From: Flavobacteriaceae bacterium
GTDB taxonomy: Bacteria; Bacteroidota; Bacteroidia; Flavobacteriales; Flavobacteriaceae
Assembly: GCA_017858055.1 (NCBI GenBank)
Contig: JAFMCA010000009.1
Location: 1-57,315 of the forward strand
Direction of reading: 5' to 3'
Length of the DNA stretch: 57,315 nucleotides
The translations under genes and the position numbers were made by a program. The notes below the pieces were generated by a model that was not told the origin of the DNA, searched no databases, and saw only the letters and a program-made list of their open reading frames with translations. Shown one piece after another: positions 337 through 43,528 of the stretch (its first letter is position 1; each line of letters opens with the position of its first letter).

Positions 337-475
337 GTTGTTATCAAGAAAGGTTGAGGGAATAGACCCTTTGAAGCCTTGGCAACCCTTTAGCAATAAA
401 GAAGGTGCTAAATTCTACTAGTAATTTTAATTACTAGGAAGATAACGAAGAGTACTCTCCACTTTTCTTGACAAC
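337..475 (+). promoter_or_regulatory. SAM-I (S-box) riboswitch with downstream competing strand
   Basis: The aptamer spans about 340-446. It shows the SAM-I core in order: TTATCAAGA, GAGGG, GACCC, TTTGAAGCC, TTGGCAACCC, then GAAGGTGCTAAATTC. The closing helix P1 is GTTATC (340-345) with GATAAC (441-446), a perfect match. S-box aptamers bind S-adenosylmethionine and normally turn off methionine-synthesis genes; this one precedes metH and metF. No intrinsic terminator is visible before metH. Downstream, bases 462-475 can pair with 337-353 (GTTG plus TCAAGAAA against TTTCTTGA plus CAAC, with a 3-nt bulge and outer G-U and G-C pairs). This would compete with P1. The aptamer identity is well supported; the switching mechanism is inferred. 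Confidence 0.88.
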
Positions 476-496
476 ATAAATATTTTAATATTCAGT

Positions 497-1504
497 ATGT
501 CAGATCTAGAACAAGCTTTACAGAAAAGAATTTTAATCCTGGACGGAGCCATGGGCACCATGATTCAGCAATATCCTCTTGAGGAAGCTGATTTTCGGTC
601 CAGTCGTTTTGAAAACCACCCCTATCCACTCAAAGGGAATAATGATTTACTTTCCCTTACTCAACCTGAACTTATAAAAGGAATTCACAGAGCCTATTTG
701 GAAGTTGGAGCAGACATTATTGAAACCAATACTTTTTCGTCCACCTCAATCGGAATGTCGGATTATCACATGGAGGATTTGGCTTACGAATTGAATTATG
801 AAAGTGCTAAAATCGCTAAAGAAGTAGTTTTAGAATTTAAACTAAGAACACCCAACCAACCCCGTTATGTAGCAGGCTCAATCGGTCCTACCAACCGCAC
901 AGCAAGCATGTCGCCTGATGTGAATGACCCTGGATTTCGTGCGGTTACTTTCGATCAGTTGGTTACTTCTTATATTGAACAAATAGAGGGGTTGATTGAT
1001 GGAGGTGTAGATGTTTTACTTGTAGAAACCATTTTTGATACACTTAATGCAAAAGCAGCGTTGTTTGCAATAGATCAAGTAAAAACAGAAAAGCAAATAG
1101 AACTTCCAGTTATGATCAGCGGAACCATTACCGATGCTAGTGGTAGAACACTTTCTGGTCAAACCGTTGAAGCGTTTAGAATTTCTTTAAGTCATGTGCC
1201 GATATTAAGTATCGGATTTAATTGCGCCTTGGGCGCTGATCAATTATTACCTTACCTCAAGCGACTCTCTTCTAAAAGCGATCAATTTATATCCGCTCAT
1301 CCTAATGCCGGACTTCCGAATGCTTTTGGAGAATACGATCAGACTCCAGAAGAAATGCGGGATTTGATTGAAGAATATCTCAAACAAAATGTAGTCAATA
1401 TTATTGGAGGATGCTGTGGAACCACTCCTGAGCATATTCGATTAATCGCTGAAGTCGCAAAAAAATACAGTCCTAGAAACCCCAAAAAAATAGAAGATGC
1501 CTGA
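497..1504 (+). CDS. metH: Methionine synthase, homocysteine-binding subunit (split MetH, N-terminal part)
   Basis: This 335-residue protein is the homocysteine S-methyltransferase domain that forms the N-terminus of cobalamin-dependent methionine synthase. It begins with [10 protein letters not shown] and carries the zinc-ligand cysteines in GFNC (about residue 243) and [10 protein letters not shown] (residues 306-307). In this genome the domain is a separate protein: the stop codon overlaps the start of the next ORF by 8 nt (ATGCCTGA), which suggests translational coupling and joint action with the remaining MetH modules. The pair would convert homocysteine and 5-methyltetrahydrofolate to methionine in the cytosol. 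The ATG at 497 follows the SAM-I riboswitch, so expression should fall when SAM is plentiful. A split MetH is known in Bacteroidota and is not by itself a sign of decay. Confidence 0.95.
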
Positions 1505-4181
1505 CTTCAAGAAAAAACCGTTGTTGTTATCAGGTCTCGAGCCGCTCGTAATCGATGAAACCACCAATTTTGTCAATGTTGGAGAACGAACTAATGTTAC
1601 GGGGTCGAGAAAGTTTCTACGGTTGATTGAAAATCAAAATTACACTGAAGCAGTTGAAATAGCCCGAGATCAGGTTTTAGGGGGAGCACAGATCATCGAT
1701 GTGAATATGGATGAAGGGATGATAGACGGTGCTGCTGCAATGACCACCTTTCTAAATCTTATCGCTGCAGAACCCGACATCGCACGAGTACCTGTTATGA
1801 TCGACAGTTCCAAATGGGAAATCATTGAAGCTGGACTCAAAGTTGTACAAGGAAAATGCGTTGTGAATTCCATTAGTTTGAAAGAAGGAGAAGCTAATTT
1901 TTTAAAGCAAGCTTCTACCATCAAAAAATTTGGTGCGGCAGTTATCGTCATGGCATTTGATGAAGATGGGCAAGCGGATTCTTTAGAACGCAGAATAGAA
2001 ATATGCAAACGCTCCTATGATCTTTTGGTCAACGCCATACAATTTCCACCCGAAGACATCATTTTTGATCCCAATATTTTTCCTGTTGCAACAGGGATGG
2101 AGGAACATCGTAAAAACGCTCTAGACTTTTTTGGAGCGACAAAATGGATTCGCGAAAATTTGCCCCATGCAAGTGTTAGTGGAGGGGTGAGTAATGTTTC
2201 TTTTTCCTTTCGAGGAAATGATACTGTCAGAGAGGCCATGCACGCTTCATTCCTTTTTCATGCCATACAGCATGGAATGAATATGGGTATAGTTAATCCA
2301 ACCTTATTGGAGGTATACGACGAAGTTCCCAAAGAATTGATGGAACATGTTGAGGATGTTTTGTTGGATCGGAAAGAAAATGCTACGGAACGATTACTCG
2401 AATATGCAGAACAACTTGTAAATTCAACAAAGACTCGAAAAAAACAAGACGACAGTTGGAGAAAAGAAGATCTTAAAAGTCGGATAAATCACGCCCTAGT
2501 CAAGGGGATCGATGCCTTTATAGAAATTGATACGGAAGAAGCCCGCCTTCAAGCGAATCGACCGATAGAAGTTATTGAAGGCCCTTTGATGGACGGCATG
2601 AATGTCGTAGGAGATCTCTTTGGAGCGGGAAAAATGTTTTTACCTCAAGTAGTAAAATCCGCTCGGGTAATGAAAAAAGCCGTGGCCTATCTTCAGCCAT
2701 TTATAGAGGCTGAAAAAAGTGTAGGTTCCCAATATGCTGGAAAAGTATTGATGGCAACTGTTAAAGGAGATGTTCACGATATCGGTAAAAATATTGTGAG
2801 TGTTGTATTAGCTTGCAATAATTATGAAATTATCGATTTGGGAGTTATGGTTCCTCCAGAAATCATCATTCAGCGTGCTATTGAGGAACAAGTCGATGTT
2901 ATTGGACTTTCTGGATTGATAACACCCTCATTAGATGAGATGGTGTATTTGGCAAAAGAACTGGACCGTCAAAACATAAAAATCCCTGTTTTGATTGGCG
3001 GTGCTACTACCTCAAAAGCCCATACTGCTGTAAAAATCGCACCTTATTCAAAAGCACCCGTAATTCATGTAAACGATGCTTCAAGGGCAGTAGGAGTGGT
3101 AAGTAATTTGTTACAAAAGGATAAAAAAGAGCCTTATGTACTTCAAATTCGTAAAGAGTATGAAATATTTAAAGAGAAATTTTTAGAGCGTACTTCTGCC
3201 AAAACCTATTTGAGCTATGAGGAAGCACAGAAAAATGCACTACAATTAGATTGGAGCAACTTTACACCAACCCCTCCTTCTGTTCAAGGAGGGATTACTT
3301 TAAATAACTTTCCTTTGGAGGAATTGGTTCCTTTTATTGATTGGTCCCCCTTTTTTAGATCATGGGATCTTCATGGAAAATATCCTGAAATTTTAGAAGA
3401 TGCTGTAGTAGGTGAACAAGCTCAGAGTTTGTTTGCAGATGCACAAGAGATGTTAAAACAAATTGTCAATGAAAAGTGGCTTGCTGCTAAAGCACGTTTT
3501 GGGATCTTTCCAGCAAACACTCAAGGAGACGATATTGAAATTTATACCAATTCGAATAGAACGGAGTTACAGGCTAAATGGCTTACACTCAGACAACAGT
3601 TAAAAAAAACCAAAGACCAACCCAACCTTGCCCTAGCCGATTTTATCGCTCCAAAGGGGTCAGGAATTCAAGATTATGTGGGAGCTTTTTGTGTTTGCAC
3701 AGGATTCGGTACTGCTGAAAAAGCTAAAGCTTTTGAAGAGGCAAATGACGATTACAACTCCATCATGATTAAAGCTCTAGCCGATCGTTTGGCTGAAGCT
3801 TTTGCAGAATACCTACATTTAAAGGTGAGAAAAGAATATTGGGGGTATGCTTCGGATGAAAATCTAACCAACGAGGATTTAATACAAGAAACTTATAAAG
3901 GAATTCGCCCAGCACCTGGTTATCCTGCATGTCCAGATCATTTAGAAAAAAAGACACTTTGGGAGCTGTTAAATGTAGAACAAGAGATTGGGGTAAAACT
4001 CACCGAAAGTTTGGCCATGTGGCCGGCTGCAGCCGTTTCCGGGTATTATTTTGCACATCCCGAGGCTAAGTATTTTGGATTAGGAAAAATTAAAGAGGAT
4101 CAGTTGGTTTCCTACAGCAAACGTAGGGGAATTCCTTTGGATGAAGCCCGAAAATGGTTGAACCCTAATTTAGCTGAATAG
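1497..4181 (+). CDS. metH: Methionine synthase, folate/cobalamin/activation subunit (split MetH, C-terminal part)
   Basis: This 894-residue protein carries the rest of cobalamin-dependent methionine synthase. The pterin-binding domain starts with [14 protein letters not shown] near residue 27. The B12-binding domain has the DVHDIGKN motif at 425-432, in which His427 should be the lower axial cobalt ligand, followed by the SGL and GGATTS segments. The C-terminal reactivation domain has the SAM-contacting [12 protein letters not shown] sequence near residue 804. It overlaps the homocysteine domain gene by 8 nt and is followed 23 nt later by metF, so all three form one operon under the SAM riboswitch. 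No frameshift or missing module was seen. The enzyme needs cobalamin, but no B12 uptake or synthesis genes lie in the window. Confidence 0.96.
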
Positions 4182-8184: not shown

Positions 8185-8215
8185 TTTGTTTTTTTAAAAA
8201 GCAATGCTACATTTG
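8185..8215 (+). promoter_or_regulatory. Promoter of the aromatic amino acid (pheA) operon
   Basis: TTTG at 8185-8188, a 19-nt spacer and TACATTTG at 8208-8215 match the Bacteroidota promoter consensus TTTG-N19-21-TAnnTTTG. The expected start near 8222 is only about 10 nt before the leader-peptide ATG at 8232, leaving a very short 5' UTR as in classical attenuators. Confidence 0.8.
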
Positions 8216-8231
8216 TGCCGATTAAAATACA

Positions 8232-8300
8232 ATGAAAAACAATTTTTCTTATTACAACGCTTTTTATTACTTCTATACAGAAGCTAAACGGACTTTGTAG
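8232..8300 (+). CDS. Phe/Tyr-rich leader peptide of the aromatic operon attenuator
   Basis: This 22-codon ORF begins MKNN, runs FSYYNAFYYFY at residues 5-15 and ends TEAKRTL before the TAG at 8298-8300. Eight of those 11 consecutive residues are aromatic: Phe at 5, 11 and 14; Tyr at 7, 8, 12, 13 and 15. It lies between a good promoter and an intrinsic terminator, directly upstream of genes for Phe and Tyr synthesis. This is the expected design of a leader peptide, analogous to E. coli PheL, whose translation senses charged tRNA-Phe and tRNA-Tyr. The product itself probably has no function. Homology was not tested; the call rests on composition, position and the RNA structures downstream. Confidence 0.88.
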   Translation: MKNNFSYYNAFYYFYTEAKRTL

Positions 8301-8333
8301 TAAGATTAATACATCATATATACTAAGGAGTCC
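8290..8333 (+). promoter_or_regulatory. Antiterminator helix of the pheA attenuator
   Basis: Bases 8290-8302 (GGACTTTGTAGTA) can pair with 8321-8333 (TACTAAGGAGTCC) at 12 of 13 positions, with two G-U pairs, one G-A mismatch and an 18-nt loop. The 3' strand contains the first five bases of the terminator stem (8329-8333), so the two structures exclude each other. The 5' strand covers the last codons and stop codon of the leader peptide. A ribosome that reaches the stop would cover it, whereas one stalled at the Tyr/Phe codons (8244-8276) would leave it free. Confidence 0.78.
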
Positions 8334-8356
8334 TGATTTTTCGGGACTTTTTTTTT
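8329..8356 (+). terminator. Intrinsic terminator (attenuator) before pheA
   Basis: AGTCCTGA (8329-8336) pairs with TCGGGACT (8341-8348) across a TTTT loop. This is an 8-bp stem with one U-G pair, followed by an uninterrupted T run ending at 8356. It sits 7 nt before the pheA ATG, after the leader peptide and before the whole operon, so it can only act as a regulated premature terminator. Confidence 0.9.
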
Positions 8357-8363
8357 GAATACA

Positions 8364-9194
8364 ATGGAAAAGCCAAAAATAGCCATCCAAGGAAATAAAG
8401 GATCGTTTCACCACGTTGTGGCGGAGCAGTGCTATACCGAAGGGTATGAGCTCGTAGTCTGTGAAACTTTCAATGACACAGTAAAAGCATTGCTGAACGG
8501 CTCAGCAGATCAGGCGGTTATGGCTATTGAAAATTCTATAGCGGGATCAATAATTCCAAATTATGCACTGATCGATCGCAATAACCTTCAAATTGTTGGG
8601 GAGTATAGTTTGAGTATTCATCATCAATTAATGGGACTCCCTGGTCAATCAATAGAAGCCATAAGGGAAGTACATTCCCATCCTATGGCTCTTTTGCAAT
8701 GTCAAGATTTTTTTCATCAATATCCACACATTCGTCTCATTGAAGCAGAGGATACTGCAGATGAAGCTCGTCGAATTTCAGAATTTCAACTCAAAGGAGT
8801 AGGAGCTATTGCTAGTCAACAAGCCGCAGAACTTTATGGAATGGAAGTTTATGCCTCTTCGATTCAGACCATAAAAAACAATGTAACCCGTTTTGTGATT
8901 ATTCAAAGTAAGGGGACTGTAATTTCAAAAGAACAAATCAATAAAGCAGCCTTAAAATTTATTTTAGATCATCAGCGAGGGAGTTTAGCTGCCGTATTAA
9001 ATGTGATGAGTGACTGCCAGTTGAATTTAACAAAAATTCAATCCTTACCTGTAATAGAGACTCCAGGCAAGTATGCCTTTTTTGTGGACGTAACTTTTGA
9101 TGATTTTGCGCATTACGAAAAAGCTACCAAGCTAATAGCAATCATGGCCTCTCAATTTAAAATATTAGGCGAATACGCTCAACATCAAAGATGA
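8364..9194 (+). CDS. pheA: Prephenate dehydratase
   Basis: Prephenate dehydratase decarboxylates and dehydrates prephenate to phenylpyruvate, the precursor of phenylalanine. The 276-residue protein starts IAIQGNKGSFHH, has the two-lobed periplasmic-binding-like catalytic fold, and contains the family's catalytic TRF motif in NNVTRFVII. A C-terminal ACT domain starts near residue 196 (GSLAAVLNVM, then NLTKIQSLP). The ESRP motif that binds Phe in many ACT domains of this family reads QSLP here, so feedback inhibition by Phe may be altered. I chose the ATG at 8364 over an upstream in-frame TTG at 8355, which lies in the terminator T run. It overlaps the next gene by 4 nt (ATGA) and is the first structural gene after the attenuator. 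Confidence 0.93.
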   Translation: MEKPKIAIQGNKGSFHHVVAEQCYTEGYELVVCETFNDTVKALLNGSADQAVMAIENSIAGSIIPNYALIDRNNLQIVGEYSLSIHHQLMGLPGQSIEAIREVHSHPMALLQCQDFFHQYPHIRLIEAEDTADEARRISEFQLKGVGAIASQQAAELYGMEVYASSIQTIKNNVTRFVIIQSKGTVISKEQINKAALKFILDHQRGSLAAVLNVMSDCQLNLTKIQSLPVIETPGKYAFFVDVTFDDFAHYEKATKLIAIMASQFKILGEYAQHQR

Positions 9195-10342
9195 AAACAA
9201 CAGCCCATCGTTTAGAAAGTGTTCAAGAATATTATTTCTCCAGAAAACTGAGAGAAGTAGGACAGTTGATTCAAGCTGGTCATCCTGTAATTAATATGGG
9301 GATAGGAAGTCCTGATTTGGCTCCACATCCAGAAGTAATTCGTGCCCTAGAAAAGGCAATGAATCATCCAAAAGCCCATATGTATCAGAGTTATCAAGGG
9401 CTTCCTGAACTAAGAGAGGCAATTGCTACGTTCTATAAAAAGTATTACCAAGTGGAGGTAAATCCAGATTCCGAAGTACTTCCCCTTATGGGATCTAAAG
9501 AAGGTATAATGCATCTTTCACTTGCTTTTTTAAATCCAGGGGATGAGGTACTGATTCCAAATCCAGGATACCCAACCTATGAATCTGTGACCCGTTTGGT
9601 AGAAGCAACCCCTGTTTTCTATGATTTAAAAGAATCAAATCAATGGCAACCCGATTTTGAAGCATTAGAGGCATTAGATACAAGTCGTGTAAAAATCATG
9701 TGGCTTAATTATCCCAATATGCCAACAGGTACTCCAGCTGATACCAAAACTTTCGATCGATTAATTCACTATGCTAGAGAGCGAGATATCGTATTGATAA
9801 ATGACAATCCCTATAGTTTTGTTTTAACCCAAACGCCACAGAGTATTCTCTCTAGACCAGGGGCGATGGATGTTACTATGGAGCTCAATTCATTGAGTAA
9901 ATCTTTTAATATGGCAGGTTGGAGAGTAGGAATGCTCTGTGGAAAAGCAGCCTTTATTCAAGCTGTACTCAAGGTAAAAAGCAACATGGATTCGGGTATG
10001 TTTTACGGAATTCAACAAGGGGCAATTGCCGCTCTGAAAATGACACCAGACTGGTTTGAAGATTTGAATTTGATTTATCAAAAGCGGAGAGATTTGGTTG
10101 AAATTTTAGCATTAAAACTGGGTACGGTTACAGATCCTAAAAGTGTTGGTCTTTTTGTTTGGGCTAAATTGCCAGATACAGCTCCTTCAGCAGAGGATTT
10201 TATAGATAAAATTCTTTATGAAAAGTATATTTTCATCACTCCAGGATCCATTTTTGGTAGTAATGGCGCTAGGTATATCCGTTTTTCATTATGTGTTACA
10301 GAAGCCACTATTTCAGAAGCGATTAAACGATTAGAGTCATGA
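9191..10342 (+). CDS. Class I/II aminotransferase of the Phe/Tyr operon
   Basis: This 383-residue PLP-dependent aminotransferase has fold type I motifs: the PNPGYPTY substrate loop, a WLNYPNMPTG stretch with the PLP-contacting Asn, and the Schiff-base lysine in SLSKSFNMAGWRVG (Lys237). It lies between pheA and tyrA with 4-nt overlaps at both ends. It is therefore most likely the transaminase that converts phenylpyruvate and 4-hydroxyphenylpyruvate to Phe and Tyr with glutamate as donor. The specificity is inferred from the operon; by sequence alone it could be an aspartate or other aminotransferase. Confidence 0.88.
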   Translation: MKTTAHRLESVQEYYFSRKLREVGQLIQAGHPVINMGIGSPDLAPHPEVIRALEKAMNHPKAHMYQSYQGLPELREAIATFYKKYYQVEVNPDSEVLPLMGSKEGIMHLSLAFLNPGDEVLIPNPGYPTYESVTRLVEATPVFYDLKESNQWQPDFEALEALDTSRVKIMWLNYPNMPTGTPADTKTFDRLIHYARERDIVLINDNPYSFVLTQTPQSILSRPGAMDVTMELNSLSKSFNMAGWRVGMLCGKAAFIQAVLKVKSNMDSGMFYGIQQGAIAALKMTPDWFEDLNLIYQKRRDLVEILALKLGTVTDPKSVGLFVWAKLPDTAPSAEDFIDKILYEKYIFITPGSIFGSNGARYIRFSLCVTEATISEAIKRLES

Positions 10343-11211
10343 AAATAGGAATCATTGGTTTGGGGCTTATTGGAGGATCATTTGCATTAGCAGCTAAAAA
10401 GCTTGTGGCTGATGCGGAACTTTATGGTGAAGACATCAATCCGAAACACCTTACAGATGCAGTAAGACTTGGAATAATTGAACATCCTTTAACCTCAGAA
10501 AGGTATGTGCAGATGGATGTAATCCTACTTGCAATACCAGTGCATGTAGCAACAGAACGCGTTTTGAATTTGTTGGATGCTATAAACGATAATGCTTTGC
10601 TTTTTGATGCGGGCTCAACAAAAGCCTCCATCTGTAAAAAAGTAGCCCTTCATCCTAAACGGAATCAGTTTTTAGCAACTCACCCCATAGCCGGGACAGA
10701 GTTTTCAGGACCTTCAGCAGCTTTCCCAGAATTATTTGAAAATCAAACTCAAATTATATGTGAAAGTCAAAAAACCAGACCCGATTTATTGGAGTGGGCA
10801 ATGCAATTTTTTAAGTCGTTACAAATGCGAATTGAGGAAATGGATGCAGAGGCCCACGATCAGCATATTGCTTACGTTTCCCATTTGTCTCATATTTCTT
10901 CTTTTATGTTAGGGAAAACAGTAATGGAAAAAGAGAAAGATGAACGCGCAATATTCGAAATGGCAGGAAGTGGATTTGCTTCTACCGTCCGATTAGCTAA
11001 AAGTTCCCCAGAAATGTGGGCGCCAATTTTTAGTCAAAACAAAAAAAACATATTGGATGTTCTCAAGGAATACATCTCGAATTTGGAACAGTTTAAGCAA
11101 CTGATGGAAAATGAAGATTGGGAACAATTACGACTTGAAATGAAAAAAATCAATGCAATACAAACCATTCTGGAGGGAATTCCAGTAAGAAACCGAACAA
11201 ATAATAACTAA
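10339..11211 (+). CDS. tyrA: Prephenate dehydrogenase
   Basis: This 290-residue enzyme oxidatively decarboxylates prephenate to 4-hydroxyphenylpyruvate, the tyrosine precursor. The N-terminal Rossmann fold starts GIIGLGLIGGS (GxGxxG at Gly7, 9, 12). HPIAGTEFSGP contains the conserved active-site His of the TyrA family, and HIAYVSHLSH belongs to the helical dimerisation domain. No ACT or chorismate mutase domain is attached; chorismate mutase is instead fused to the next gene's product. It starts with an ATGA overlap behind the aminotransferase gene and ends 21 nt before the DAHP synthase gene. Confidence 0.94.
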   Translation: MKIGIIGLGLIGGSFALAAKKLVADAELYGEDINPKHLTDAVRLGIIEHPLTSERYVQMDVILLAIPVHVATERVLNLLDAINDNALLFDAGSTKASICKKVALHPKRNQFLATHPIAGTEFSGPSAAFPELFENQTQIICESQKTRPDLLEWAMQFFKSLQMRIEEMDAEAHDQHIAYVSHLSHISSFMLGKTVMEKEKDERAIFEMAGSGFASTVRLAKSSPEMWAPIFSQNKKNILDVLKEYISNLEQFKQLMENEDWEQLRLEMKKINAIQTILEGIPVRNRTNNN

Positions 11212-11232: not shown

Positions 11233-12315
11233 ATGGAAAACAAAAAAGAAATGCGCCAATGGCTCGATAATTTTGGATTAGATCACCCTTTAGTGATTGG
11301 AGGTCCTTGTAGCGCCGAAACAGAAGAGCAAGTTTTAAAAATCGCTCACGAGCTCAAAGATACCGACGTTACCGTTTATCGAGCAGGTATTTGGAAACCA
11401 AGAACCCGACCTGGAATGTTTGAAGGTGTTGGTGCAATCGGTTTAGAATGGCTGAGAAAAGTGAAAGAACAAACAGGTTTGTTAACCGCTACCGAGGTAG
11501 CCAATAAAGACCATGTAAAATTAGCCTTAGAATACGATGTTGATATATTATGGATCGGTGCACGTTCTACGGTGAGTCCTTTTATTATGCAGGAAATTGC
11601 GGATGCCTTGGAAGGAACAGATAAGATTGTTTTGGTAAAAAATCCCGTGAATCCAGATCTCGCACTTTGGTTAGGAGGAGTTGAGCGACTTTATACAGCG
11701 AACATAAAGAAGTTAGGATTAATTCATAGAGGATTCTCTACGTATGAAAAAACGAAATATAGAAACATTCCTGAATGGCAAATAGCAATAGAAGTAAAAA
11801 ATAAATTTCCAGACTTGCCAATGATCTGTGATCCTTCGCACATTGCAGGACGTCGTGATTTGATTTTTGATGTTTCACAAGCAGCTTTGGACTTGAATTT
11901 TGATGGTTTAATGATCGAAACCCACTGGGATCCAGATAATGCATGGAGTGATGCCGCACAGCAGGTAACCCCCTCAAGATTAGTCGAAATCATGCGCGAT
12001 CTAAAAGTACGTAAACAAACAACTGACGAGGAAGCCTATTTACAAACCTTGACCAATCTGAGAGCTCAAATAGATATATTAGATCAAACCTTATTGGACA
12101 CTATGGGGAAACGCATGAAGGTAGCCATGGAAATTGGATCTTTGAAAAAAGCGAATAATGTAGCGGTGCTTCAAAATAAACGATGGAACGAAATTCTAGG
12201 AAGAATGATTCTCGAAGGTCAAGAAAGAGATTTATCTGAAGAATTTATCTTGAGAGTATTTAAAGCAATCCATCAAGAATCAATAAATAAACAAGAAAAA
12301 ATTCTTAATGCATAA
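11233..12315 (+). CDS. Bifunctional DAHP synthase / chorismate mutase
   Basis: The 360-residue protein joins two enzymes. Residues about 1-260 form a type I-beta 3-deoxy-7-phosphoheptulonate synthase, with VIGGPCSAET (21-30), AGIWKPRTRPGMFEG and CDPSHIAGRRD near the metal site. It condenses PEP and erythrose-4-phosphate in the first step of the shikimate pathway. Residues about 270-355 are an AroQ-type all-helical chorismate mutase, with RAQIDILDQTLLDTMGKRM, then IGSLKKANN. The fusion places the pathway entry and the prephenate-forming step in one polypeptide, in which chorismate or prephenate may act on the synthase allosterically, as in related fusions. It ends the attenuator-controlled operon. 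Confidence 0.94.
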   Translation: MENKKEMRQWLDNFGLDHPLVIGGPCSAETEEQVLKIAHELKDTDVTVYRAGIWKPRTRPGMFEGVGAIGLEWLRKVKEQTGLLTATEVANKDHVKLALEYDVDILWIGARSTVSPFIMQEIADALEGTDKIVLVKNPVNPDLALWLGGVERLYTANIKKLGLIHRGFSTYEKTKYRNIPEWQIAIEVKNKFPDLPMICDPSHIAGRRDLIFDVSQAALDLNFDGLMIETHWDPDNAWSDAAQQVTPSRLVEIMRDLKVRKQTTDEEAYLQTLTNLRAQIDILDQTLLDTMGKRMKVAMEIGSLKKANNVAVLQNKRWNEILGRMILEGQERDLSEEFILRVFKAIHQESINKQEKILNA

Positions 12316-12351: not shown

Positions 12352-12951
12352 ATGGATTTATTGGAGTTAATGCGCCTATCCAGAGAAAAACTAAAACCTC
12401 ATTGGGGGTTGGCCTTCTTGATTTGTTTAATTTATGGAATAGCATTAGGGGTTCCCTCAGAATTAAACAGTTATGGAGAGCTTCTTTCATTTTTACTTGC
12501 AGGTCCCTTGCAATTGGGAATGTGTATTTTTTTCTTGAACAGTGCAAACAATAAACCCATTGCTATAGAGAATCTTATGGAGGGGTTCAAACCCCTCCTT
12601 CAAGTATTGTTAGCATATGCAGTCATGACAATTGCAATTTTAGTTGGTTTGGTATTGTTCCTATTTCCAGGGATAGTGGTTTCCTTGGGATTGTCAATGA
12701 CGTTTTTTGTAATGGCAGAAAATCCTGAAATTTCTTTTGGGGATGCTCTTCAAGAAAGTTGGAAACTCACAGAGGGCTACAAAATGGAATTGTTGGTTTT
12801 GTATCTTCGTTTTATTCCTTGGTATTTATTAGGATTACTTTTATTGGTGATTGGAGTCTTTATTGCCATGGCCTGGCATCAGCATACGCTTGCGATGTAT
12901 TATGAGTATTTAAAAGAGGAAAGAGCAAGAAAAGAAGCTCTTACTGAGTAG
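12352..12951 (+). CDS. Hypothetical membrane protein (DUF975/YciC-like)
   Basis: This 199-residue protein has an N-terminal amphipathic start (MDLLELMRLSREKLKPHWG) and about five hydrophobic helices. One pair, near residues 85-125, contains a FLFPGIVVSLGLSM turn, and it ends with a charged tail rich in Glu, Lys and Arg. A short start helix, a PGI turn and the EISFGDALQESWKLTEGYK loop resemble DUF975/YciC-type integral membrane proteins of unknown function. It follows the DAHP synthase gene by 36 nt with no terminator visible, so it may be read from the aromatic operon. The stop overlaps the convergent PPK2 remnant by 11 nt. Confidence 0.6.
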   Translation: MDLLELMRLSREKLKPHWGLAFLICLIYGIALGVPSELNSYGELLSFLLAGPLQLGMCIFFLNSANNKPIAIENLMEGFKPLLQVLLAYAVMTIAILVGLVLFLFPGIVVSLGLSMTFFVMAENPEISFGDALQESWKLTEGYKMELLVLYLRFIPWYLLGLLLLVIGVFIAMAWHQHTLAMYYEYLKEERARKEALTE

Positions 12952-13714
12952 AAATTTGATACGGAATTTTCTCAAGTATGTGTGCGATAGCCTCAAGGCG
13001 TGCTTTTGTTTTTTTATTTGCATCGATAATGTGCCAGGGGGCTAACTTGGTATTTGTGGCTTCAAACATTTTCTGTTTGTACAACGTATAATCGTCCCAC
13101 AAAATTTGTGCTTTTTCATCCAAAGGGGTAATCTTCCATCGCTTCAATGGATTACTTTTAATTTCCTCAAACCTTCTTGCTTGCTCTGGTTTTGAAATGG
13201 AAAAATACAATTTGATAAGATGGATATTCGACTGGATAAGCATCTTTTCAAAATCGTTGACTTGAGTCATAAAAATCTCGTATTCTTCTTTGGCACAAAA
13301 CTCATTTACGGGTTCTACGACCCTTTGTTGTACCAGCTTCGATCAAAAAACACTATTTCACCAGGGTTAGGTAATTCTTTGATGTAACGTCTGAAACACC
13401 ATTGTCCTAGTTCAATATCCGTAGGTTTTGTAAGGCTACTACCCTTGATTTTCTGGGATTTAAGTGCTCTTTAAATCGTTTGATAGAACCGCCTTTTCCA
13501 GCGGCATCTCTCCCTTCAAAAATGATTGCAACACGCATTTTTTTTGAGCGATCCATTTCTGAAGGTTTACGAATTCAGATTGTAATTTTCCTAACTCGAT
13601 TTCGTATTTCACTTTGTTTAAAGCTTTTTCTATGGGAATCTCATTTTCCTGAGCAAGACGAACAAGATCAGCTCTTTTTTGAATTTTATTAAAATGTTCT
13701 TGAGTTAAATCCAT
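12941..13714 (-). pseudogene. Polyphosphate kinase 2 (PPK2) family gene, broken by three -1 frameshifts
   Basis: Read on the minus strand and pieced across three frames, the sequence encodes a full-length PPK2-family protein. The N-terminus is MDLTQEHFNKIQKRADLV. The Walker A is [18 protein letters not shown], then [28 protein letters not shown] and the C-terminus VNDFEKMLIQSNIHLIKLY. Each break is one missing base: in the 8-T run at 13534-13541, near 13432-13435 (GTAAGGC) and near 13321-13324 (CCCTTT). All three are at or beside short homopolymers. Intact members transfer phosphate between polyphosphate and nucleotides. The pattern fits either recent decay or systematic sequencing errors; everything else in the product looks conserved. 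An upstream in-frame ATG at 13759 is also possible. Confidence 0.82.
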
Positions 13715-13880
13715 GGGGTTTTGAATTTTTGGGAATCCTATTTCTATTACCAATCGCATTAGGAGCTTCTCCTTTGATAAAGTAGTCTAAGAGTAAGAAA
13801 ATCTCATAGAAAAGAAGCAGGCATAACGAGAGGTTTTGTAAAAAGTCAAAGAGTTTTGGGGCTCATATAGCATTAAAGTT

Positions 13881-43156: not shown

Positions 43157-43528
43157 TTAATAGTTTGAGGCAATTTGAGTGGTCTTGGCATCACCCCAAA
43201 GCTCCTCAATATTGTAATATTCACGAATTTGCTTCTGAAAAACGTGCACTACTACGTTCACATAGTCAATTAAAACCCATTCTGCATTTTCCAACCCCTC
43301 CGTATGGAATGGTTTTTCTTTTATGGTTTTGCTTACTGTTTTTGTAATGGAATTTACAATGGCTGAAACCTGAGTGTTTGAGTTTCCAGAACAAATAATA
43401 AAAAAGTCGCAAGGGGTGTTATCCAACTCTCTCAAATCCAATTTATGAATCTCTTCTCCTTTTACATTTTCTATACCAAGTATGATTTCTTCTACTAACT
43501 GGATATCCTTCTCTTTTTTATTTGCCAT
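43157..43528 (-). CDS. rsfS: Ribosomal silencing factor RsfS
   Basis: This 123-residue member of the RsfS/Iojap family binds the 50S subunit through uL14 and prevents subunit joining under starvation. It has KLDLRELDNTPCDFFIICSGNSNTQVSAIV, GLENAEWVLIDYVNVVVHVF and the C-terminal REYYNIEELWGDA, all typical. ftsH follows 5 nt later and the gene may lead the rsfS-ftsH-LUD-cdsA-psd transcript. A TAAATTTG -7-like element is found upstream on the minus strand (43548-43555). Confidence 0.93.
   Translation of the reverse strand: MANKKEKDIQLVEEIILGIENVKGEEIHKLDLRELDNTPCDFFIICSGNSNTQVSAIVNSITKTVSKTIKEKPFHTEGLENAEWVLIDYVNVVVHVFQKQIREYYNIEELWGDAKTTQIASNY

Follow-up and report, generated by a model that had tools for sequence, protein, structure and literature searches.

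The locus described here raises the question of how a Flavobacteriaceae bacterium could adjust its aromatic amino acid operon to the supply of Phe and Tyr. It was found in a 57,315-nucleotide stretch of DNA, the whole of which we call the window, and an earlier sequence-only reading had proposed that the operon is preceded by a leader peptide and an attenuator. Following up this proposal, we consider it very probable that a ribosome-mediated transcription attenuator controls the pheA-aminotransferase-tyrA-DAHP synthase/chorismate mutase operon.

The leader, its promoter and the operon

The leader is located between a divergent gene for a membrane protein (DUF819) and pheA. The features read upstream of pheA and in the operon are the following.

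8185-8215 (+): promoter TTTG-N19-TACATTTG, read from the sequence
8232-8300 (+): leader peptide ORF MKNNFSYYNAFYYFYTEAKRTL, 22 codons, with 8 aromatic codons in residues 5-15
8364-9194 (+): pheA, prephenate dehydratase (PF00800, E 3.2e-56)
9191-10342 (+): class I/II aminotransferase (PF00155, E 3.9e-61), overlapping pheA by 4 nt
10339-11211 (+): tyrA, prephenate dehydrogenase (NF006307, 361.5 bits, above the cut-off of 295)
11233-12315 (+): DAHP synthase-chorismate mutase fusion (PF00793 and PF01817)

The two promoter elements lie where they had been placed, TTTG at 8185-8188 and TACATTTG at 8208-8215, and we take this promoter to be of the Bacteroidota type. Of 114 unique upstream stretches, 53 have the pattern TTG-N17..21-TANNTTTG within 70 nt 5' of the leader start codon, compared with 10 of 1636 window tiles, and the spacer was 19 in most of the matching stretches. 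The 61 misses came mostly from Flavobacterium, having TANNTTCG at that place.

Re-reading of the ORF gave the same result as before, namely 22 codons at 8232-8300 with 3 Phe and 5 Tyr codons, which make up 8 of the 11 codons across residues 5-15. A short ORF rich in codons for the products of the operon, as found here, is one of the features of leaders of the TrpL/PheL/HisL kind. For ORFs of 8-34 codons with at least 8 Phe/Tyr/Trp in 12 residues, dinucleotide shuffling of the 260-nt upstream region produced an ATG example 3 times in 2000, and 5 times in 2000 when GTG and TTG starts were added. On both strands of the whole window, three ATG ORFs had at least 8 aromatic residues in 12, including the pheA leader. 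The other two (43304-43366 and 43445-43498) were rejected as chance occurrences, both being antisense within the ORF 43157-43528. The antisense aromatic-rich ORFs of this 123-aa ORF (- strand) show that a chance origin is possible.

Profile matches agreed with the gene set that had been named, that is pheA, an aminotransferase, tyrA and DAHP synthase-chorismate mutase. For pheA the best NCBIfam model was a prephenate dehydratase (209.8 bits, below the cut-off of 219). Among the 25 matches listed for the aminotransferase (9191-10342), the best NCBIfam models were LL-diaminopimelate aminotransferases, below their cut-offs; its position in the operon suggests that it probably catalyzes an aromatic or prephenate step. 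The genes are tightly packed, with a 4-nt overlap also between the aminotransferase gene and tyrA, and 21 nt between tyrA and the DAHP synthase-chorismate mutase gene. The order pheA, aminotransferase, tyrA, DAHP synthase-chorismate mutase was present in 88 of 100 loci, and some of the others end at the edge of a contig or stretch.

Competing helices and the proposed mechanism

Four segments of the leader RNA take part in three mutually competing helices.

8247-8257 (+): segment 1, 5' arm of the 1:2 protector hairpin, over codons Ser6-Tyr7-Tyr8-Asn9 (minimum free energy fold of 8221-8356 and RNAalifold consensus)
8290-8305 (+): segment 2, pairing with segment 1 (through 8295-8305) or with segment 3 (through 8290-8302) (sequence and folding)
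8321-8336 (+): segment 3, pairing with segment 2 (through 8321-8333, antiterminator) or with segment 4 (through 8325-8336) (sequence and folding)
8341-8356 (+): segment 4, 3' arm of the terminator and T-run (terminator search, folding and alignment)

The intrinsic terminator at 8325-8356 was recovered as claimed, with a stem 8325-8336/8341-8352, whose 5' arm is the 8325-8336 part of segment 3, and a T-run that ends at about 8356, leaving 7 nt before the pheA ATG at 8364. It thus sits between the leader ORF and the first gene, as in the attenuator class. The alternative helix of the sequence-only reading, 8290-8302 with 8321-8333, was also confirmed: 12 of its 13 positions pair, and the segment folded alone reached -11.4 kcal/mol, which 14 of 200 shuffles equaled. 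In the window alone the antiterminator is mildly better than shuffles, and its support is comparative. The leader stop codon (8298-8300) sits inside segment 2 and, as had been read, is covered by the 5' arm of the antiterminator.

The leader RNA (8221-8356) has a folding energy of -32.6 kcal/mol, whereas its shuffles average -14.1 (z -6.5), none of 200 being as good. This best fold corresponds to the default state, in which the 1:2 hairpin (8247-8257 with 8295-8305, enclosing a small hairpin 8270-8274/8279-8283) and the 3:4 terminator are formed and the antiterminator is not. The earlier reading of the helices was therefore right for 2:3 and 3:4 and had overlooked the 1:2 protector hairpin.

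The resulting layout 1:2, 2:3 and 3:4 is that of TrpL/PheL-type attenuators. In E. coli TrpL, hairpins 1:2, 2:3 and 3:4 compete, segment 1 contains the control codons and the stop codon lies at segment 2. The pheA leader shares this scheme of segments, whereas the amino acid sensed, the sequence and the phylum differ. Using customary ribosome footprint lengths for the placement, the antiterminator, mutually exclusive with the terminator, would be masked by a ribosome at the stop codon and free when the ribosome is at the control codons. In the window, segment 2 begins 16 nt 3' of the start of the last aromatic codon.

The general scheme of leader-peptide attenuation is outlined in PMC1183508, and we infer translation of the leader, ribosome stalling and read-through from this established scheme. 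A ribosome at the leader stop codon would mask segment 2, so that the terminator forms. After release of the ribosome, or if the leader is not translated, the 1:2 hairpin would sequester segment 2 from segment 3. On the contrary, a ribosome stalled on the aromatic codons 5-15 would disturb segment 1 and segment 2 would remain free, able to pair with segment 3, and RNA polymerase would then read through into pheA.

Conservation in relatives

We looked for the same arrangement at 163 partly redundant pheA loci from three sources (43 + 80 + 40). A set of 60 related genomes, together with the own genome (2.0 Mb), supplied the 43 loci; the 80 named loci were the best 80 of 206 confirmed stretches and partially overlap with the 43-locus set; the last 40 were chosen among the matches listed, from the 172 of 198 genomes that matched in a phylum-wide search. 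As a leader we counted an ORF of 8-34 aa with at least 6 Phe/Tyr/Trp in 12 residues.

Results showed a leader and a terminator before pheA in 145 of the 163 partly redundant loci; close relatives inflate such raw counts, and the 145 loci reduce to 121 unique segments. Both elements were present at all 33 pheA loci analyzed from the own genus (a pheA match was absent in 4 of 36 related genus genomes), at 80 of the 80 named loci, mostly from Flavobacterium and taken as the best 80 of 206, and at 14 of 14 loci from other Flavobacteriaceae. The proportion was 6 of 10 in other families of the order and 12 of 15 in other families of the class, and no leader was detected before pheA at the 11 loci from other classes of the phylum. 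These 11 loci, together with 7 from the class, make up the 18 of 163 that fell below the cut-off. Leaving aside the 80 named loci, 7 of 72 class-level loci were without a leader by this cut-off, and one of the 7 (L033) carries a weaker aromatic ORF, MNRLENTFNSFYFIYDR. An example from a named species is Flavobacterium johnsoniae CI04 (L110), whose pheA leader is MAANRFYFSNNFYFFFSRSQDCAMVI. The recurrence before pheA for which the sequence-only reading had proposed to look was thus observed at every genus locus and at most class loci sampled, and the interpretation as attenuation is supported overall.

Several of the leaderless loci hold fewer operon genes in the stretch analyzed: three f22 loci were without the DAHP synthase gene and two f5 loci had pheA alone. 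At L038 / L237 (G047), with the order pheA, tyrA, DAHP synthase-chorismate mutase, an aromatic leader was not detected. Two loci holding just pheA and DAHP synthase-chorismate mutase do carry the leader. The RNA model R1 had a single copy in the own genome; applied to 100 Flavobacteriaceae genomes, it matched 58 at E<=0.01, a tally that includes weaker matches and is not usable as a distribution.

We then considered covariation within the genus, using an alignment (A1) of 35 rows, made of 32 of the 33 genus loci and of L057, L058 and L122; L006, which contains N, was omitted. RNAalifold on these 35 sequences returned the 1:2 hairpin and the terminator. In the 1:2 helix 5 pairs had changed on both sides, with 21 such cells, and 0 of 500 shuffles matched its cells, its percentage paired or its covariation score; its pair number was reached in 137 of 500 shuffles, its pair types, reached in 464 of 500, showed no excess, and 67% of cells were still paired when the partner was slid by +3. 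When codon order was permuted, the 1:2 pairing stood out at p<=0.05 in 19 of 121 leaders, most clearly, among the leaders listed, in several from outside the genus. The protector hairpin is thus found in the minimum free energy and consensus folds and carries compensatory changes, and in the window codon-order permutations pair just as well (p 0.44).

The other two helices behaved differently. The terminator had 96% of cells paired with pairs that hardly vary, and the 2:3 helix had 71% of cells paired versus 35-51% when slid, with one compensatory cell and a score below shuffles. Judging from this alignment, neither the 2:3 helix nor the terminator is proved by covariation in the genus. The sequence-only reading had looked to these two helices for compensatory changes, and within the genus this part did not hold, as it is the 1:2 helix that carries them there.

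Because covariation of the 2:3 helix in the genus was uninformative, we used tests of the antiterminator across clades. Compared with dinucleotide shuffles, its pairing was significantly stronger (p<=0.05) in 110 of the 121 unique leaders, and the 11 that fell short came from the genus (7), the genus-like clade (3) and Flavobacterium (1). Outside the genus-like and Flavobacterium-like clades, all 26 antiterminators were at p<=0.05, some of these leaders being mutually close. Families differ strongly in leader RNA sequence, and the partner of the terminator 5' arm is still found just 3' of the aromatic block. In particular, counting from the start of the last aromatic codon, the antiterminator arm begins at a median of 11 nt downstream, within 9-17 nt in 118 of 121 leaders (the exceptions are L008, L039 and L041). 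In 120 of 121 leaders it also overlaps the region from -10 to +12 nt relative to the start of the stop codon. The search for the arm began at the last aromatic codon; redone over the whole ORF, it returned the identical arm in 120 of 121. In an arm-swap test with 32 representatives, own arms averaged -17.7 kcal/mol versus -10.4 for swapped arms, the own partner being the single best in only 10 of 32.

The codons of the leader were compared in 34 aligned sequences (A1 minus L057). Most changes in the aromatic codons are third-base substitutions or Phe/Tyr exchanges; Tyr7 is TAT in 14 and TAC in 17, and codons 13 and 14 are nearly invariant. Residues 2-4, 16, 18 and 19 drift, Glu17 is kept and Arg20-Thr21-Leu22 are kept less strictly, at places where the RNA is paired. 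This pattern appears to be that expected of a translated peptide whose aromatic content matters.

Such coding-type constraint argues against readings that make the short ORF incidental, namely a riboswitch, a T-box or an RNA attenuator bound by a protein. A terminator with an antiterminator would by itself be compatible with regulators of that type, which we nonetheless consider very improbable here: the leader had no match to Rfam riboswitches or to the T-box at gathering score, and six relaxed matches (E up to 10) all stayed at or below 54% of the family cut-off. Moreover, the ORF takes about half of the leader, leaving little space for an aptamer, and aromatic ORFs persist across families with very different leader RNA.

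It is also hard to believe that the terminator is constitutive and ends a short independent transcript, an sRNA or the mRNA of a functional micropeptide, with pheA expressed from another promoter. A second promoter farther upstream or inside the leader would be compatible with the sequence, but the 7 nt from the T-run to the ATG are too short for a promoter, the recurring antiterminator would be without a role, and the peptide drifts apart from its aromatic content and its RNA-paired parts. Attenuation by a translating ribosome therefore remains our preferred reading.

The sequence-only reading had called a mixed Phe and Tyr leader unusual. This was not borne out, as 89 of 90 distinct leader peptides hold both residues (means of 4.6 Phe and 3.8 Tyr, with Trp additionally present in 17 of 90), and a Phe-Tyr-Phe leader has been described in Corynebacterium glutamicum (PMC11802643). 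In our 34 sequences, Phe/Tyr exchanges occur at leader positions 5, 7, 8, 11, 12, 13 and 15. This interchange of Phe and Tyr codons leads us to suggest that a shortage of either amino acid alone may suffice for read-through (a logical OR).

The same attenuator could instead effectively sense just Phe or just Tyr, with the codons for the other amino acid carried along as passengers. C. glutamicum AroR is a precedent, since this Phe-Tyr-Phe leader answers Phe limitation and not Tyr limitation (PMC11802643). We regard such single sensing as unlikely in the present case, without dismissing it, as Tyr codons exceed Phe codons 5 to 3 in a leader whose relatives nearly all hold both, exchange between the two affects seven positions, and the operon makes both Phe and Tyr.

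Precedents, other leaders and further observations

In E. coli, PheL (RF01859) likewise combines a short Phe-rich ORF and an attenuator before the prephenate dehydratase gene (PMC11802643). Unlike in PheL, most of the aromatic codons here are for Tyr, and tyrA and DAHP synthase-chorismate mutase belong to the operon as well. The match to the RF01859 Phe_leader model reached 15.8 bits, versus a gathering score of 55; the pheA leader would work like Phe_leader and is not filed as a member of that family. AroR, as described in PMC11802643, resembles our leader in being a mixed Phe/Tyr leader before a DAHP synthase operon (aroF), and differs in having a Phe-Tyr-Phe stretch only, in responding to Phe and in belonging to another phylum.

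Leader-peptide control had also been said to be sparsely documented in Bacteroidota, and this has to be qualified. The accessible text of PMC9723704 reports strong indications that leader peptides attenuate amino acid operons of Flavobacterium psychrophilum, together with structured 5' elements before pheA and hisG that occur in other Flavobacteriaceae genera too and are without Rfam hits. The F. psychrophilum element precedes the same gene in the same bacterial family; the peptide, the competing helices and the sensed amino acids, worked out here, are not given in that part of the account. For Bacteroides thetaiotaomicron, PMC7366714 mentions short ORFs resembling leader peptides. Apart from PMC9723704, the mainly open-access literature that we searched contained no account of a Phe/Tyr leader in Bacteroidota. 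Attenuation at the pheA leader is thus not unprecedented; with counterparts in many relatives, it appears to be a widespread form of a textbook mechanism rather than a one-off.

We also looked at other amino acid operons. In the own genome, the leader ORF MNRTIILRNGWWYRLQQ, which contains Trp codons in tandem, starts about 130 nt upstream of trpE (L195, C42); it is followed, as read by eye, by a terminator-like hairpin with T-run. Among strong trpE-type loci in the class, 15 of 16 had a short ORF with at least 2 Trp upstream, a count made without chance control. The own-genome hisG (L194, C20) has a weak His-His leader followed by a terminator-like hairpin with T-run, again by eye. At least 3 consecutive His codons in a short ORF before hisG were found at 22 of 24 Flavobacteriaceae loci (L194 and L201-L223; likewise without chance control), the exceptions being the own genome, with two His, and L215. 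The own-genome hisG leader is perhaps a decaying control. At three HMGL-like loci of the own genome, a scan for Leu/Ile/Val leaders, with reading before one of them, gave none that was convincing. Since Trp and His leaders are also found before trpE and hisG, leader-peptide control looks general in this bacterial group.

These results work out the anatomy of a textbook mechanism, best known in Proteobacteria, and extend it to a wide range of the Bacteroidia sampled. They also offer a testable prediction, that two amino acids are read by one leader. Because such control requires a ribosome close behind RNA polymerase, the leaders would provide a natural assay of transcription-translation coupling in Bacteroidota. 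A broader view, on which our own judgment is evenly divided, is that Bacteroidia would generally rely on leader attenuation to control the synthesis of aromatic amino acids (probably along with His and Trp), and that the Phe and Tyr leader would be an old, class-wide OR-gate whose signals are interchangeable. If true, this OR-gate would need tight transcription-translation coupling at the 5' ends of genes. Ribosomes of Bacteroidia hardly use Shine-Dalgarno signals.

Two further observations were made elsewhere in the window. A polyphosphate kinase 2-like gene at 12941-13759 (- strand) is apparently split into several ORFs, a 109-aa ORF matching the C-terminal half of PPK2 models and ORFs of 49 and 99 aa lying upstream; this seems to reflect a pseudogene or assembly errors. 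In addition, a SAM riboswitch (RF00162, 88.9 bits) lies at 338-448 (+) and is, with a tRNA, the only Rfam match at gathering score in the window. The ORFs 497-1504 and 1497-4181, which overlap by 8 nt, are located 3' of it and presumably encode methionine synthase.
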